NCBI GenBank assembly: GCA_003248075.1
Contig: QJYK01000268.1
Location: forward strand, 1 to 40,178
From: Gemmatimonadota bacterium
GTDB taxonomy: Bacteria; Gemmatimonadota; Gemmatimonadetes; Longimicrobiales; Gaopeijiaceae
Length of the DNA stretch: 40,178 nt
Direction of reading: 5' to 3'
The notes beneath the pieces were generated by a model, which worked only from the letters and a program-made list of their open reading frames with translations, had not been told where the DNA came from and did no database searches. Shown here one piece after another: positions 1,028 through 39,854 of this stretch; position 1 is the first letter of the stretch, and every line of letters starts with the position of its first letter. The position numbers and the translations under genes are program-made.

Positions 1028-1726
1028 TTGCTGGCGATGCGACTTCACGCGCTGCTGCTGCAGATTCCCGGCGTGGACACGCCGGAGCTCACCATACAGG
1101 AGCAGATTGCTAAGAACTGGGCAGACACCGGCTTCATGCGCTGGCCCCTGGCTCTTTGTCTGGTCCTGGGGGTCATTGTCATCATCATCAAGTTCGTCGA
1201 CCTCACGGCGAAGGCGTCCCGCACGCGCCGGATCCTCAAGGACGTCGACGAGCTCCTGGTCCAGCGCCGCATCAAGGAGGCGTTGGAGCTGACCCGTGAT
1301 ACCAACTCGCCTGCCGCGAACATTCTCTACGCGGGGCTGGAGCGTCAGGACGAGGGCACGGACCGTGTGATGAAGGCGATCGAGAACCAGGGCCTGATCG
1401 AGATGAGCAAGCTCGAAAAGGGCCTCGTCATCCTCGCTACGCTCACCAACATCGCGCCTCTCCTCGGCTTCCTTGGCACCGTGATCGGCATGATCATCGC
1501 CTTCCAGTCGATCGAGGCTGCGGGCGAAGTGGAGGCGACGCTGGTGGCCGGCGGTATCAAGGTCGCGCTGCTGACCACCGCCGCGGGGCTCATGATCGCC
1601 ATCCCGGTGTCGATCGGTCACAACTACTTCGTGTCCCGGATCGATGCGCTGGTCATCGACATGGAGGAATCCGCGCAAAAGATGGTCGACACCCTGCACG
1701 CGATCGAGGCGGGCCGGGCCGGCTGA
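1028..1726 (+). CDS. MotA/TolQ/ExbB-family proton channel protein
   Basis: Inner-membrane protein of the family that couples the proton gradient to work at the outer membrane (TonB-ExbBD) or envelope (TolQR). Of 232 residues, three hydrophobic segments fit the family: about 39-56, 130-160 and 172-200, with a cytoplasmic loop between the first two. The second contains the conserved stretch LLGFLGTVIGMIIAF and the third LTTAAGLMIAIPV. The start is TTG at 1028, because GGAGG at 1016-1020 lies seven bases before it; the next ATG at 1037 would be too far away. No ExbD/TolR or TonB gene follows; instead a strong terminator closes the unit, so the channel appears to be made alone here and its partner must be elsewhere. 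ExbB versus TolQ cannot be decided. Confidence 0.88.
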   Translation: MLAMRLHALLLQIPGVDTPELTIQEQIAKNWADTGFMRWPLALCLVLGVIVIIIKFVDLTAKASRTRRILKDVDELLVQRRIKEALELTRDTNSPAANILYAGLERQDEGTDRVMKAIENQGLIEMSKLEKGLVILATLTNIAPLLGFLGTVIGMIIAFQSIEAAGEVEATLVAGGIKVALLTTAAGLMIAIPVSIGHNYFVSRIDALVIDMEESAQKMVDTLHAIEAGRAG

Positions 1727-1748
1727 CGCCTCGCTCGACCGCGTAGAG

Positions 1749-1789
1749 GCCGCCCTCCGACCTTCGCGTCGGAGGGCGGCTTTCGTTTT
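1749..1789 (+). terminator. Rho-independent terminator after the ExbB-like gene
   Basis: A perfect 12-base-pair stem (1749-1760 with 1769-1780, GCCGCCCTCCGA paired to TCGGAGGGCGGC) with an 8-base loop is followed by a T-rich run TTTCGTTTT. It is the clearest intrinsic terminator in the window and marks the ExbB-like gene as monocistronic or last in its unit. Confidence 0.88.
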
Positions 1790-1864
1790 CCCCTGGCGGA
1801 CGGCCGCACGCGGGACCACGATTGAAGTAGGACCACAGCTTCAAGACTCCCCGAGCCTTCGTAG

Positions 1865-4183
1865 ATGAAGCGAGCGCGGCCTCTTCCTTCAACAGGACTC
1901 GTATTGGCGTTGTCCGTGAGCCCCGTGCTCATCGGGCAAGCCGAGCCGGCGGCCCACCCGCCGGCGGCGGACGAAGCCCTGGATGAGATCTCGGTTGGGC
2001 GGTTCTGGCACGCCGCGCGCATCCTTCGCAAAGAGGGTGCCGAGCGTGGATCACCCGACCGCGTGCTTCTGCTCGCCCGCGCCGAGGCGGGCTGGCGGAA
2101 TTGGTCCGCGGTGGTCGACCTCCTCGATGGACGCCCGTGGCTGCCTGTCCAGGATGGAGGGGAGGGCCTAGTGCTTCTGGGCCACGCCCTGGAGGCGGAG
2201 GGACGATGGCCGGCGGCGGCGGAGCGGTACGAGGATTTCCTGGGTCGGCTCTCCGAGGAGGATACACGCAGGTCAGCGCTGCTGGCCCGGCTCGCCCGCG
2301 TCCGTGCAGGCGCCGGGAACATGGCTGGGGCGCTCGAGGCGCTCGATGCCATTCCTTCCCGCGATGTGACGGTCAGGAGCTGGGCTGCGGTCGAGCTCGC
2401 CGAGTCGCCCTCCCAGCGTGCCGATACCTCGACCCTGCTGCGGCTGCACGAGAGGATTGTGGACGCCCAGGCACGCGCCGCGACCTGGAGACAGGTGCCC
2501 GACGCCCGACTCGCGGCCCATGATTCGCTCGGCGCGGAGCGCGGGTTCAGGGATGCGCTTGCCACGGTCAGGGGTGATCGCAGGGCGGAGGCCTCAGCGG
2601 AGGTCGGGCTGCTGGCGCTTGCACGAGGAGACACGGCAGAAGCCCGGGAGCTGCTGGGCAACGGTGCCACACATGGATCCTTGACCAGTCGAGGTCGGGC
2701 CGCGGCCGCCCTGATCGGGATGGGCGGCATCGGCTTGGAGACCTCCCTGGACCTCGGCAGCATTCTCGATCGATCGGGGGACGGTGCGAGCGCCCTGCGC
2801 GCCTACGATCGGGCGGCCAGGCTCGCGCCGGGAGGGGCGGCAGAGCTGCCGGGCTGGGCGCGACTCGCCAGGGCGCGGCTGATGGCCACCGTGCGTGTCC
2901 GACAGGATGAGGCCGTCGAGGAGTTCAGGGCGATTCACGCTTCGAGCCCGGGCGACGCCCTGGGTGGCCGCAACCTCGAGGCCTGGATGGCGCTCCGACG
3001 ACGACAGGGTCGGACCGGCGATGTGAGCACGCTGCGGGGCTGGCTCCTCGATCGGTTCCCCGGGAGCCCCCAGGCGGCCGAGGTGCTCTGGGAGCGGGGC
3101 AGCTCGGCGGAATCGAGAGGTGACCTCGACGGTGCGCTCACGGAGTATTCTCGGCTGGCGGCGGCGGCTCCCTCGCTGGCTCGGTCGGGTCAGGCGCGCA
3201 TGAGGGCCGGGCAGATCCATTTCGGTGAGGGGCGCTTCAACGAAGCGGCGGAGGTATACGAGGCCTATCTGTCGGATTTCCCGGACGGACGTCGCTGGGA
3301 GGAGGCCTCGTACTGGGCGGCTCGCGCGCGCCTCGAGGCCGGCGACTCGGCGGCTACCCGTCGGTGGATCGAAAACATCCGTGCCCGGGAGCCGGTCTCC
3401 TACTACGCCGTGATGGGGTCGGCGCTGCTCGGCGAGAGCTACCACGTCGAGCTTTCGACGGGTGCCCGCTCGGAGGTGCCCGGCTGGCTCACGGAAGGTC
3501 TGCGCCGCCTGGATCTGCTCGCCGACGCCGGCCTCGAGCGAGGAGCGGCTGCCGAAGAGTCACGCCTGATCGGGCGCGCCAAGGGCTCGTCGTCGGTGAC
3601 CCTCGCATTGGCCGAGGCGCTCATCGGTCGGGGGCGGACCGTCGCCGGTATCAACCTCGGATGGGGATTACGGAATGGTGGCCGGACGTGGGACCGACGC
3701 CTGGTCCAGGTGGTCTACCCCTTCCCCTACCGGGAGCTGGTGCGCCGAGAGGCCGAAGAGTGGGGGGTCGACCCCATCATGCTGGCGGCGCTCATCCGTC
3801 AGGAATCGGCTTTCGAGGCGGACATCGTCAGCACCGCCGGTGCAGTGGGGTTGATGCAGGTCATGCCCTCCACCGGGCGTGAGCTCGCACAGGCATACGG
3901 GCCCGCGCCCTTCGCGGCAGCCAGCCTGCGGACCCCCGAGGTCAACCTCCACCTGGGGGCGGCGTTCTTCGTCCAGATGAACGGGCGGTACGACGGGATG
4001 CTTCCGCTGGTCCTGTCGGCGTACAACGCGGGACCCACGCGGGCGACCCGATGGCGCCGTTTCCCCGAGGCGTCGGACCCGGTGCGGTTCACGGAGCGCA
4101 TCCCCATCGACGAAACGCGAGGGTACGTCAAGAACGTGCGCCGGAACTTCGGCCTGTATCAGGTCCTGTACGGGCAGCAGTAG
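1865..4183 (+). CDS. Secreted lytic murein transglycosylase with helical-repeat N-terminus (Slt70-like)
   Basis: Predicted periplasmic enzyme that cleaves the MurNAc-GlcNAc bond of peptidoglycan to form 1,6-anhydro ends. The 772-residue product begins with a signal peptide (MKRARPLP, then a hydrophobic stretch, and a likely cut after LIGQA). It continues as a long alpha-helical tetratricopeptide-like region (roughly residues 30-600), for example ALTEYSRLAAAAPSLARSG and NEAAEVYEAYLSDFPDGRR. The C-terminal SLT domain (about 625-760) has the family hallmarks: catalytic glutamate E647 in RQESAF, GLMQVMPSTG and the AYNAGP motif. Size and order match soluble Slt70-type enzymes, although a few of that family act only as scaffolds. 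The ATG at 1865 has no strong Shine-Dalgarno sequence but gives a proper signal peptide. It stands alone after a terminator. Confidence 0.9.
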   Translation: MKRARPLPSTGLVLALSVSPVLIGQAEPAAHPPAADEALDEISVGRFWHAARILRKEGAERGSPDRVLLLARAEAGWRNWSAVVDLLDGRPWLPVQDGGEGLVLLGHALEAEGRWPAAAERYEDFLGRLSEEDTRRSALLARLARVRAGAGNMAGALEALDAIPSRDVTVRSWAAVELAESPSQRADTSTLLRLHERIVDAQARAATWRQVPDARLAAHDSLGAERGFRDALATVRGDRRAEASAEVGLLALARGDTAEARELLGNGATHGSLTSRGRAAAALIGMGGIGLETSLDLGSILDRSGDGASALRAYDRAARLAPGGAAELPGWARLARARLMATVRVRQDEAVEEFRAIHASSPGDALGGRNLEAWMALRRRQGRTGDVSTLRGWLLDRFPGSPQAAEVLWERGSSAESRGDLDGALTEYSRLAAAAPSLARSGQARMRAGQIHFGEGRFNEAAEVYEAYLSDFPDGRRWEEASYWAARARLEAGDSAATRRWIENIRAREPVSYYAVMGSALLGESYHVELSTGARSEVPGWLTEGLRRLDLLADAGLERGAAAEESRLIGRAKGSSSVTLALAEALIGRGRTVAGINLGWGLRNGGRTWDRRLVQVVYPFPYRELVRREAEEWGVDPIMLAALIRQESAFEADIVSTAGAVGLMQVMPSTGRELAQAYGPAPFAAASLRTPEVNLHLGAAFFVQMNGRYDGMLPLVLSAYNAGPTRATRWRRFPEASDPVRFTERIPIDETRGYVKNVRRNFGLYQVLYGQQ

Positions 4184-4258
4184 GGGCACGACGGCCTCCC
4201 CACCGGCGCTTGCCTGGCCCGAGATGCGGCGTCGTTGAAGCACGCCGCAGGGCACTCC

Positions 4259-24790: not shown

Positions 24791-26014
24791 ATGGAACGAG
24801 ACCCACTCGACAGCCCGGAGGCGACTCCAGGGCCCGATCGGCCGCTCGAGGAGCTGCGCGAAGCATTGGGCGCCGACTTCGAGATCGTCCGCAAGCTCGG
24901 CGAAGGCACGATGTCCAACGTCTGGCTGGCACGTGACCGCGCCCTGGGCGTGCTGGTCGCCATCAAGGTCATGCGCGTCGGGCGCATGGCCGACGAGACC
25001 GCGCGTCGCCGTTTCGAGCGCGAGGCGCGCGCCGCCGCGAGCCTGTCCGAGCACCCCAACGTCGTGGCGGTGCACCGTTTCGGGCGCCTGCCAGACCAGA
25101 CACCCTATCTGGTCATGCAGTTCGTGAAGGGTCGCACGATGGAGGAGCGGCTCAAGGCGGAGGGGCGCCTGCCCGTGGCGGAAGCCACCGGTGTTCTGCT
25201 GGACGTGGCATCCGCGCTGGAGCTGGCGCACGGGAAGGGCATCGTCCACCGGGACCTTCGGCCCGCCAACGTCCTGTGGGATGAAGAGCGTCGGCGCGCG
25301 CTGCTGACCGATTTCGGTATCGCCGCGATCCTCGCGACGTCGGGCGAAGAGGTCACTCGGCTGACCAAGACCGGGCAGCTCATCGGCGATCCCCGGTACC
25401 TGAGCCCGGAGCAGCTCCTCGACAAGGACCTAACGGAGCTGGCCGACATCTACCTGCTCGGAGTGCTCGGCTACGAGCTCCTCACGGGTGAGGGCCCCTA
25501 TCAGGTGAGGACCCTGATGGAGGGAGTGTCCGCTCACCTCAGCCAGGAGCCGAGGGACCTCCGGACGCTGCGTCCCGACGTACCCGCGCACGTGGCCGAC
25601 CTCCTGCGTCGCTGCTTGTCGCGCGAGCCCAACCACCGTCCGAGCGCGGCGGACGTGGCCAGGACCCTGCGCAGCGGCGTCGCCACGGCGACCTCTTCCT
25701 CCTCCTCCGTCGAGTCGGACGACGTCGCCATGCTCCTGCGGCGCCGCGTCCCTCAGGTCGTCGGCCTCGCCATCGCCGGCAGCGTCGCCCTCATCGGCCT
25801 GGCCAGCGACCTGGAGGGCAAGGGCCGTCTCCCGGTATACGCGGTGGACGTCGCCCTGGTCACTTCGGCCGCGCTGGTGCTGGCGTCGGGAATCCTGGCC
25901 TGGTTCCATGGTGAGCGCGGTCGCCAGCGGGCGCCGGTGATCGAGTACTGGCTTCTGGGCGCGGTCGGCGCCGCGTGGCTGCTCATCAGCACCTGGATCG
26001 CGATCACCGAGTGA
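24791..26014 (+). CDS. Hanks-type serine/threonine protein kinase with C-terminal membrane helices
   Basis: Membrane-bound protein kinase, 407 residues. The catalytic domain (about 25-290) has the glycine loop LGEGTMSNVWLARD, the ATP-anchoring lysine in VAIKVM, catalytic loop H153-R-D-L-R-P-A-N160, DFG from D174, activation segment GDPRYLSPEQ and the helix-F motif ADIYLLGVLGYELLTGEGPY. The usual lysine after HRDL is arginine (R157); this occurs in active kinases such as the Src family, so activity is still likely. After a Ser-rich linker, three hydrophobic segments close the protein (VVGLAIAGSVALIGLA, VALVTSAALVLASGILAW, WLLGAVGAAWLLIST), with no obvious sensor domain. ATG 24791 lies far enough from any ribosome-binding site to suggest leaderless translation. 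It is transcribed divergently from the GntR-ABC operon and shares its control region. Confidence 0.92.
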   Translation: MERDPLDSPEATPGPDRPLEELREALGADFEIVRKLGEGTMSNVWLARDRALGVLVAIKVMRVGRMADETARRRFEREARAAASLSEHPNVVAVHRFGRLPDQTPYLVMQFVKGRTMEERLKAEGRLPVAEATGVLLDVASALELAHGKGIVHRDLRPANVLWDEERRRALLTDFGIAAILATSGEEVTRLTKTGQLIGDPRYLSPEQLLDKDLTELADIYLLGVLGYELLTGEGPYQVRTLMEGVSAHLSQEPRDLRTLRPDVPAHVADLLRRCLSREPNHRPSAADVARTLRSGVATATSSSSSVESDDVAMLLRRRVPQVVGLAIAGSVALIGLASDLEGKGRLPVYAVDVALVTSAALVLASGILAWFHGERGRQRAPVIEYWLLGAVGAAWLLISTWIAITE

Positions 26015-37289: not shown

Positions 37290-39854
37290 ATGTCGGACAC
37301 GATCCCCCGCCTGAACGCAGCCCTCGAAGGCCGCTACCGGATCGAGCGTGAGCTCGGTGAGGGCGGGATGGCGAGAGTCTATCTCGCGGAGGACGTGAAG
37401 CACGGGCGGATGGTCGCGCTCAAGGTTCTGAAGCCGGAGCTCGCGGCCGTGGTCGGTGCCGAGAGGTTCCTCGCCGAGATCGAGACCACGGCGAAGCTCC
37501 AGCACCCCCACGTCCTTCCGCTGCACGACTCCGGCGAGGCGGACGGGCTTCTGTTCTACGTGATGCCGTTCGTCGAGGGCGAGAGCCTGCGGGACCGCCT
37601 CGATCGTGAGCACCAGCTACCGGTCGACGTTGCCGTCCGGATCGCGACGAGCCTGGCCGAAGCGCTCGACTACGCGCACCGGCACGGCGTGATCCACCGG
37701 GACATCAAGCCGGCGAACGTGGGGATCGCGCTCGCGATCGGTGCCGGTGGAGGCGGGAGGCTCACCGAGACGGGTCTGTCGCTGGGCACGCCCCATTACA
37801 TGAGCCCCGAGCAGGTGACGGGCGATCGGCGTGTCGGTCCGTCGTCCGACATCTGGGCCCTGGGTTGTGTGCTGTACGAGATGCTGGTGGGTGAGCCGCC
37901 GTACACGGGGGGAACTCCGCAGGCGCTCCTGGGCCGGATCATCGCGGACGAGGCTCCGTCCGCGAGCTCGGGACGTCGTGCGGTCCCCGGCCACGTCGAT
38001 GGGGCGATCCGCAGGGCACTCGAGAAGCTGCCGGCGGATCGGTTCGCCGGCGCGGACGACTTCGCGAAGGCGCTCGGAGATCCCGGCTTCCGTCACGGCG
38101 CCGGGGCGGCTGCGGCGGCCGACGCCTCCCGCGGGCGGACCTTTGCACGCGCGACTGCGGCTCTTGGCTGGATCGTGGCGATTGCGGCAGCCGTCGCGCT
38201 GCTGAACCGGCCTCGCGAGCCGCTGGATCTCGCCGCGTCGATCAATCTGCCGGGAGGAGCGTTTCTGCCACAGCTGGAGATCACGTCGGTTCTGGACGTG
38301 TCGCCCGACGGGACGACGGTGGCCTTCATCGCCAAGAGCCAGGCCGGAGAGCGTCAACTCTACCTCCGTCGGCTGGACGGCTTCGAGACGATCGTGGTCC
38401 GCGGCAGCACCGGGGCACGTTCGGTGGCCTTCTCGCCCGACGGGGAGTCGGTGGCCTTCGGCGTGGAGGGCGAGGTACGGACGGTCGCGGTGAGTGGCGG
38501 GCCTCACCGGACGGTGTGCGCCGCGGGCTGCAGAATGGAGATCGGCACATGGACGCCCGCCGACACGATCATCTACGGGAACATCTACACGGGCCTGTCA
38601 CAGGTGGCGGCGTCGGCGGGCGCCGGGAGGCGCCTGACCATGGTCGACCTGGCCGGAGGCGAGTTCGCCCACGTGTGGCCGGAGGCTCTACCGGGTGGCG
38701 GGATCCTGTATGGCGTTCTCTTCGAGACGGGAGAAGAGGAGATCCGGTTTCTCTCCGACGGTGTGTCCCGATCGGTCCTTCAGGGCGCGCGCCAGGCGCG
38801 CTACGCCAATGGGAGGCTGTTCTACGTGGTCGGCTCCTCCCTCTTCTCCGTTGCCTTCGATCCGGACCGGGGGACGACGATCGGAGAGTCCGTCGAGATC
38901 GTGGGCGACCTCTGGCTGAACGGCGATTTCGGCAAGGCGGCGGCGTTCGCCGTCGGGGGAGACGGGACGCTGGTTTACGTGCCCGCGAGCGAGAGCACGT
39001 CCAACGCTCTCGTGCGGGTGAGCCGCGACGGCGATCCCACCGTCGTGGTGGCGGGGCAACGGCAATTCCTGTTCCCGAAGCTGTCACCGGTGGACAGCAC
39101 GCTGCTGTTGTTCGGTGACCGTGGTGACCTCTGGACGTTGGACGTCGCGTCGAAGGCCGAGCCGCTTCAGCTAACGGTCAGCGGTGTGGACCTCGCCCCG
39201 GTCGGGTCGCCCGACGGGCGCGTATTCTATCAGAGCCGTCAGGGCGGGGTTGGCAACCTATTCGTGACATCTGCGGACGGGCGGGACGACCCACGACGGT
39301 TTCTGACTTCGGAGCAGGATCAGTTCCCCAATACGGTCACACCGGACGGTGGCACGCTCGTATTCGGGGAGGCCGGGGACATCTGGACCGTGCGGCTCGA
39401 GGCGGGCGCGGAGCCGACGCTTCTGCTCGGAGACGAGTTCACGACCCATATCGGCGGTGTGTCGCCCGACGGGCGCTGGCTGGTGTATGTGTCCGGCCGC
39501 AGCGGAAGAGACGAGATATACGTGGACGCTTTCCCCGACCTCGGACACCGCCGGCGTGTGTCGATCGCTGGAGGCACCGAGCCGGTGTGGTCGCCTGCCG
39601 GGGGCGAGCTCTTCTTCCGTGACGGGGATCGAATGATGGTGGTGGCCTATCGCGGGCCGACGGCGAATGGCGAGTTTGACGCCGACCGAGCCCGTGTGCT
39701 GTTCGAGAGACGCTACCAGCACTGCTGCCGCGGTCTGGCCCAGTACGCTGTGGCAGCGGACGGCCGGAGCCTCTTCATGGTTCGGGTCGGGGAGGCCCGT
39801 GAGATCCGCGTCTGGCGTGGCTGGGAGGAACAGGCCGCTCCAGGGTCACGATGA
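37290..39854 (+). CDS. Serine/threonine kinase-like protein with C-terminal beta-propeller; DFG segment missing
   Basis: Membrane protein of 854 residues: kinase domain (about 20-275), one membrane helix (about 288-306, LGWIVAIAAAVALLN) and a periplasmic TolB/WD40-like propeller (from about 315) with repeated blades such as VLDVSPDGTTVAFIAK, SVAFSPDGESVAFGV and IGGVSPDGRWLVYVSG. The kinase part has LGEGGMARVYLAED, VALKVLKPE, catalytic loop HRDIKPAN (136-143), GTPHYMSPEQ and SDIWALGCVLYEMLVGEPPY. After N143-V144 it jumps straight to GIALAIG: roughly twelve residues, including the Asp-Phe of DFG, are absent while the frame is kept. Without the Mg-binding aspartate it is probably inactive or a pseudokinase, unless the sequence is in error. 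ATG 37290 lacks a clear ribosome-binding site but starts as homologues do. It overlaps the amidohydrolase gene by four bases. Confidence 0.9.
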   Translation: MSDTIPRLNAALEGRYRIERELGEGGMARVYLAEDVKHGRMVALKVLKPELAAVVGAERFLAEIETTAKLQHPHVLPLHDSGEADGLLFYVMPFVEGESLRDRLDREHQLPVDVAVRIATSLAEALDYAHRHGVIHRDIKPANVGIALAIGAGGGGRLTETGLSLGTPHYMSPEQVTGDRRVGPSSDIWALGCVLYEMLVGEPPYTGGTPQALLGRIIADEAPSASSGRRAVPGHVDGAIRRALEKLPADRFAGADDFAKALGDPGFRHGAGAAAAADASRGRTFARATAALGWIVAIAAAVALLNRPREPLDLAASINLPGGAFLPQLEITSVLDVSPDGTTVAFIAKSQAGERQLYLRRLDGFETIVVRGSTGARSVAFSPDGESVAFGVEGEVRTVAVSGGPHRTVCAAGCRMEIGTWTPADTIIYGNIYTGLSQVAASAGAGRRLTMVDLAGGEFAHVWPEALPGGGILYGVLFETGEEEIRFLSDGVSRSVLQGARQARYANGRLFYVVGSSLFSVAFDPDRGTTIGESVEIVGDLWLNGDFGKAAAFAVGGDGTLVYVPASESTSNALVRVSRDGDPTVVVAGQRQFLFPKLSPVDSTLLLFGDRGDLWTLDVASKAEPLQLTVSGVDLAPVGSPDGRVFYQSRQGGVGNLFVTSADGRDDPRRFLTSEQDQFPNTVTPDGGTLVFGEAGDIWTVRLEAGAEPTLLLGDEFTTHIGGVSPDGRWLVYVSGRSGRDEIYVDAFPDLGHRRRVSIAGGTEPVWSPAGGELFFRDGDRMMVVAYRGPTANGEFDADRARVLFERRYQHCCRGLAQYAVAADGRSLFMVRVGEAREIRVWRGWEEQAAPGSR

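Follow-up and report, generated by a model that had tools for sequence, protein, structure and literature searches.

A 36-base in-frame gap removes the DFG aspartate from one receptor-type kinase of a Gemmatimonadota bacterium

We find that one receptor-type Ser/Thr kinase gene of a Gemmatimonadota bacterium has lost 36 bases at its active site, cleanly and in frame, and that this loss is unique among the 225 kinase domains compared, while the remainder of the gene is intact. The gene lies at positions 37290-39854 of the window, by which we mean the whole 40,178-nucleotide stretch analysed (contig QJYK01000268.1). The junction is a real feature of the assembly and was correctly described in a preliminary description of the window, which reported both a clean loss of some 12 codons and intact flanking kinase motifs. 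It most likely marks a recent inactivation, with a minority chance that an emerging pseudokinase has been encountered.

The gene and its deletion junction

The gene belongs to a receptor-type kinase family that is hugely amplified in Gemmatimonadota. Its members join a cytosolic PknB-like kinase, one transmembrane helix and an outer beta-propeller sensor in a single chain, and all three parts are present here (Table 1). Pfam recovers the kinase domain (PF00069, 4.8e-40, 138 bits against a cut-off of 31.7) and the PD40 repeats (PF07676, 1.1e-13), and the fold, the PF00069 match and the retained beta3 Lys, alphaC Glu, HRD Asp and catalytic Asn together identify a Hanks-type (PknB-like) Ser/Thr kinase. 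Compared with the propellers of eight paralogues and relatives, this one is 27-32% identical.

Table 1 Features of the kinase–propeller gene, with positions in the window
Feature	Position	Strand	Remarks
Kinase–TM–PD40-propeller gene	37290-39854	+	854 aa, reading frame unbroken
PknB-like Ser/Thr kinase domain, residues about 13-265	37326..38084	+	74-80% identity to close paralogues outside the gap
Beta3 ATP-binding Lys45 (VALK)	37422..37424	+	Retained
Catalytic loop HRDIKPANV (Asp138, Asn143)	37695..37721	+	Unbroken
Deletion junction	37721..37722	+	36 bases gone = 12 codons, LLxDGxPVxxDF in relatives; Gly kept
Rest of activation segment, GIAL...GTPHYMSPE	37722..37811	+	Conserved
Putative single transmembrane helix, residues 288-306	38151..38207	+	Hydropathy
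C-terminal PD40/TolB-like beta-propeller	38325..39824	+	Pfam PD40; no large deletion

At the junction, HRDIKPANV runs straight into GIALAIGAGGGGRLTETGLSLGTPHYMSPEQ. The Val codon GTG (37719-37721) abuts the Gly codon GGG (37722-37724), the letters reading ...CCG GCG AAC GTG / GGG ATC GCG CTC... (KPANV/GIAL, at 37721/37722), and both frame and coordinates are correct. What has gone is the beta7-beta8 hairpin together with the Asp-Phe of DFG, whereas the Gly of that motif stays, as do the beta3 Lys, the alphaC Glu, HRD, the catalytic-loop Lys and Asn, the SPE Glu and the F-helix Asp. For comparison we aligned the domain to 224 others, all full and distinct, drawn from its own genome, the genome of the same genus and other Gemmatimonadota. 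Between the residue that follows the catalytic Asn (N+1) and the DFG Gly, 213 of these 224 have 12 residues and the other 11 have 13-16, against none here, and the DFG Asp is kept in all 224. Relatives sharing the gap, which the preliminary description named as support for a real pseudokinase, are therefore absent from this set (0/224). Moreover, the gap exceeds what chance would give, because in-frame gaps of at least 8 residues within the kinase core occur in just one other of the 225 domains, in the C-lobe and away from the active site.

One close paralogue is an intact sister gene, L004 (contig C320), which has the same layout and a kinase domain 78% identical outside the gap, and which carries NILLQDGKPVVSDFG where the deleted protein has none of these 12 residues (N+1 to DFG Gly). 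The comparator originally chosen, at 24791-26014 of the window, does have intact HRD and DFG (HRDLRPANVLWDEERRRALLTDFG), yet it is a distant kinase (36% identity) with C-terminal hydrophobic stretches and no PD40 propeller detected by Pfam, and far closer paralogues, 76-82% identical in the kinase domain, lie elsewhere in the genome.

Predicted fold, activity and known counterparts

The AlphaFold2 model of the deleted domain (75 aligned sequences) retains a bilobal fold, with a pLDDT of 88 and a pTM of 0.86, although the beta7-beta8 strands are absent and residues 146-165 fall under 50 pLDDT. With an equivalent alignment the sister L004 reaches 89.6 pLDDT and 0.89 pTM; its beta7 (141-144) and beta8 (147-150) are present, and its activation loop is similarly disordered. 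A single 36-base in-frame deletion would thus have taken out the hairpin that bears the DFG Asp, and on these models what is left should adopt roughly the bilobal kinase fold. However, AlphaFold2 tends to be lenient towards deletions, and consequently its model is weak evidence of real folding.

Since the DFG Asp is gone, the catalytic Mg2+ could no longer be held, and phosphotransfer, and with it the kinase activity of the protein, is predicted to be lost. Under the usual sequence definition, by which a pseudokinase lacks at least one of the beta3 Lys, the HRD Asp and the DFG Asp (PMC12599244), the protein is a predicted pseudokinase. The pseudokinase reading that had been put forward for it stands to this extent, whereas its second part, that fold and propeller have been selected for a binding role, finds no such backing: the gap is common to no relative, and two broken copies of the family are equally undecayed (see below).

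The nearest solved relatives are the kinase domains of Mycobacterium tuberculosis PknB, PknA and PknE (about 35% identity, TM-score about 0.7). PknB possesses the beta7-beta8 hairpin and the DFG Asp, both of which the present protein lacks, and it bears PASTA domains rather than a PD40 propeller. Closer in layout is PknD of the same species, which likewise joins a kinase, a transmembrane segment and an extracellular beta-propeller sensor (PMC2877116), but which is an active kinase with a propeller of a different type; by analogy with such receptors, the propeller described here probably senses something outside the membrane while the kinase module signals inside. A deletion within the DFG motif is known from most members of ActPs2, a bacterial pseudokinase family (PMC12599244). 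ActPs2 proteins, however, also show beta3 Lys to Arg and HRD Asp to Asn replacements, large inserts and an actinobacterial range, whereas in the present case DFG alone is lost, and in one gene alone; of the ActPs2 features (beta3 Arg, HRN, DFG deletion) the DFG loss agrees, while Lys and HRD are intact. The literature on in-frame variants that delete DFG mostly concerns cancer kinases.

Age of the deletion and competing explanations

The explanation we favour, with modest confidence, is that a deletion has recently inactivated this gene within a redundant kinase family; it would then be a spare copy with a loss-of-function lesion and not a long-selected pseudokinase. Arguing for this are the uniqueness of the gap (1/225), the lack of a syntenic orthologue, the presence of other fresh lesions and the high redundancy of the family, which has about 90-120 members in the genome. 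Arguing against it are an 854-residue frame that is otherwise perfect, given that a random deletion of this size stays in frame a third of the time, and the fact that an established, constrained pseudokinase would look alike at a single locus.

The distribution of the gap bears directly on this choice. A DNA pattern for the junction (HRDxKPxN-x-GxA), which detects only the exact gap length and the codons that the pattern allows, matched this gene and no other, whether in the genome that carries it or in the 154 genomes covered for the order. Three further matches among 395 genomes of the phylum (L201-L203) were rejected, as an ordinary DFG lies downstream in each. Searching 59 relatives for orthologues at E<=1e-200 returned the gene itself alone, and no syntenic orthologue was found in the only same-genus genome, where an aminotransferase gene, and no kinase, comes after the counterpart of the neighbouring aldehyde dehydrogenase (77% DNA identity). 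A conserved pseudokinase family would be recognised by a loss common to orthologues; here the loss is unique in 225 domains, with no true match at the exact gap length among the 154 order and 395 phylum genomes. Because it is common to no relative, a freshly broken spare copy is likelier than an established signalling part.

What remains of the domain bears on the age of the event. The kinase tree places the gene beside L004 as its sister (support 0.77) and gives it a terminal branch of ordinary length (0.196, rank 103 of 140). Relative to L004, dN/dS is 0.137/0.745, or about 0.18, the synonymous distance being near saturation at this codon usage and hence a minimum. The deleted domain departs from the family majority at 23 positions, compared with 19 in L004, and these counts, taken with dN/dS, show no sign of relaxation before what would be a late event. 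Furthermore, at 64 invariant sites (98% or higher conservation across 163 relatives) the domain shows no change, where neutral evolution over the full length of its branch predicts about 52; should neutrality have begun with the deletion, the time elapsed is less than about 0.021 synonymous substitutions per site. The recency suspected at the outset is borne out to the extent that either the deletion is recent or constraint still acts on the domain.

A clean remainder cannot separate these two possibilities, because broken copies of the family elsewhere in this genome show just as little decay. One (L159, contig C288) has a frameshift with an internal TAG and 2 of 66 invariant sites changed, and another (L152, contig C8, 9901-11088) has an in-frame TAA within the kinase and 0 of 64 changed. 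We consequently do not take the lack of decay as proof of a pseudokinase. The background of this kinase family in this genome includes recent lesions, or assembly errors that resemble them.

The foremost alternative, though an unlikely one, is a selected pseudokinase, that is, a dead but folded kinase and propeller acting as a decoy or allosteric partner of active paralogues. It would account for a clean, in-frame junction in a domain that keeps its other catalytic and structural residues and is modelled confidently outside the activation segment, and ActPs2 provides a precedent. Against it, besides the isolation of the gap and the undecayed broken sisters, the active-site motifs show no visible compensating changes.

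Somewhat further down in likelihood we place a sequencing or assembly error, under which the organism's own gene would have an ordinary DFG. The genome is fragmented (344 contigs) and rich in paralogues, and stretches of at least 30 (fewer than 40) bases to the left of the junction are shared with homologous loci among those compared. Nevertheless, exact matches that reach the junction stop at 21 bases on the left and 15 on the right, no stretch of at least 16 bases across it occurs in any other compared locus, and the breakpoint shows no microhomology on comparison with homologues. A chimera of paralogues was also rejected, both halves being best or near best matched by L004. As judged from the junction itself, an assembly error has no mechanism.

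Also improbable, slightly more so than an error, is the origin of a pseudokinase receptor in one step, by which loss of the beta7-beta8 and Asp-Phe hairpin would have yielded a folded dominant-negative or scaffolding receptor among about a hundred active sisters. If the gene is real and maintained, it would be a nascent bacterial pseudokinase whose close active sisters could serve as controls, and would show that a kinase fold can survive loss of this hairpin; should it be no more than a fresh lesion, it would exemplify the birth-and-death turnover of receptor kinases in an extreme expansion. That the protein is still an active kinase, by way of another metal ligand or mechanism, is highly improbable, for although Lys45, the alphaC Glu, Asp138 and Asn143 are kept and the literature credits some pseudokinases with atypical activity, the catalytic loop has lost its entire beta7-beta8 support and the first 15 residues past the junction include no acidic residue.

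Kinase expansion in the genus

The expansion of these kinases is extreme in the genus, with at least 61 PF00069 matches scored among 121 candidates in the genome that carries this gene (G000) and 55 in another (G001), compared with 0-21 in other genera of the taxonomic family. One homologous kinase domain (L175, contig C2, reverse-strand frame 1661-4225) has a 13-residue gap in its C-lobe, with unbroken active-site motifs. Across the paralogues of G000, kinase modules reach 97% amino acid identity, while their propellers share only about 20-30%. In a pair of genes on contig C38 (L169; 177-2978 and 6486-9194), identity at the codon level reaches 0.79 for the kinase, against 0.55 by chance, and lies below chance for the propeller, a pattern which suggests that kinase modules have undergone gene conversion or been swapped beneath diversified sensors.
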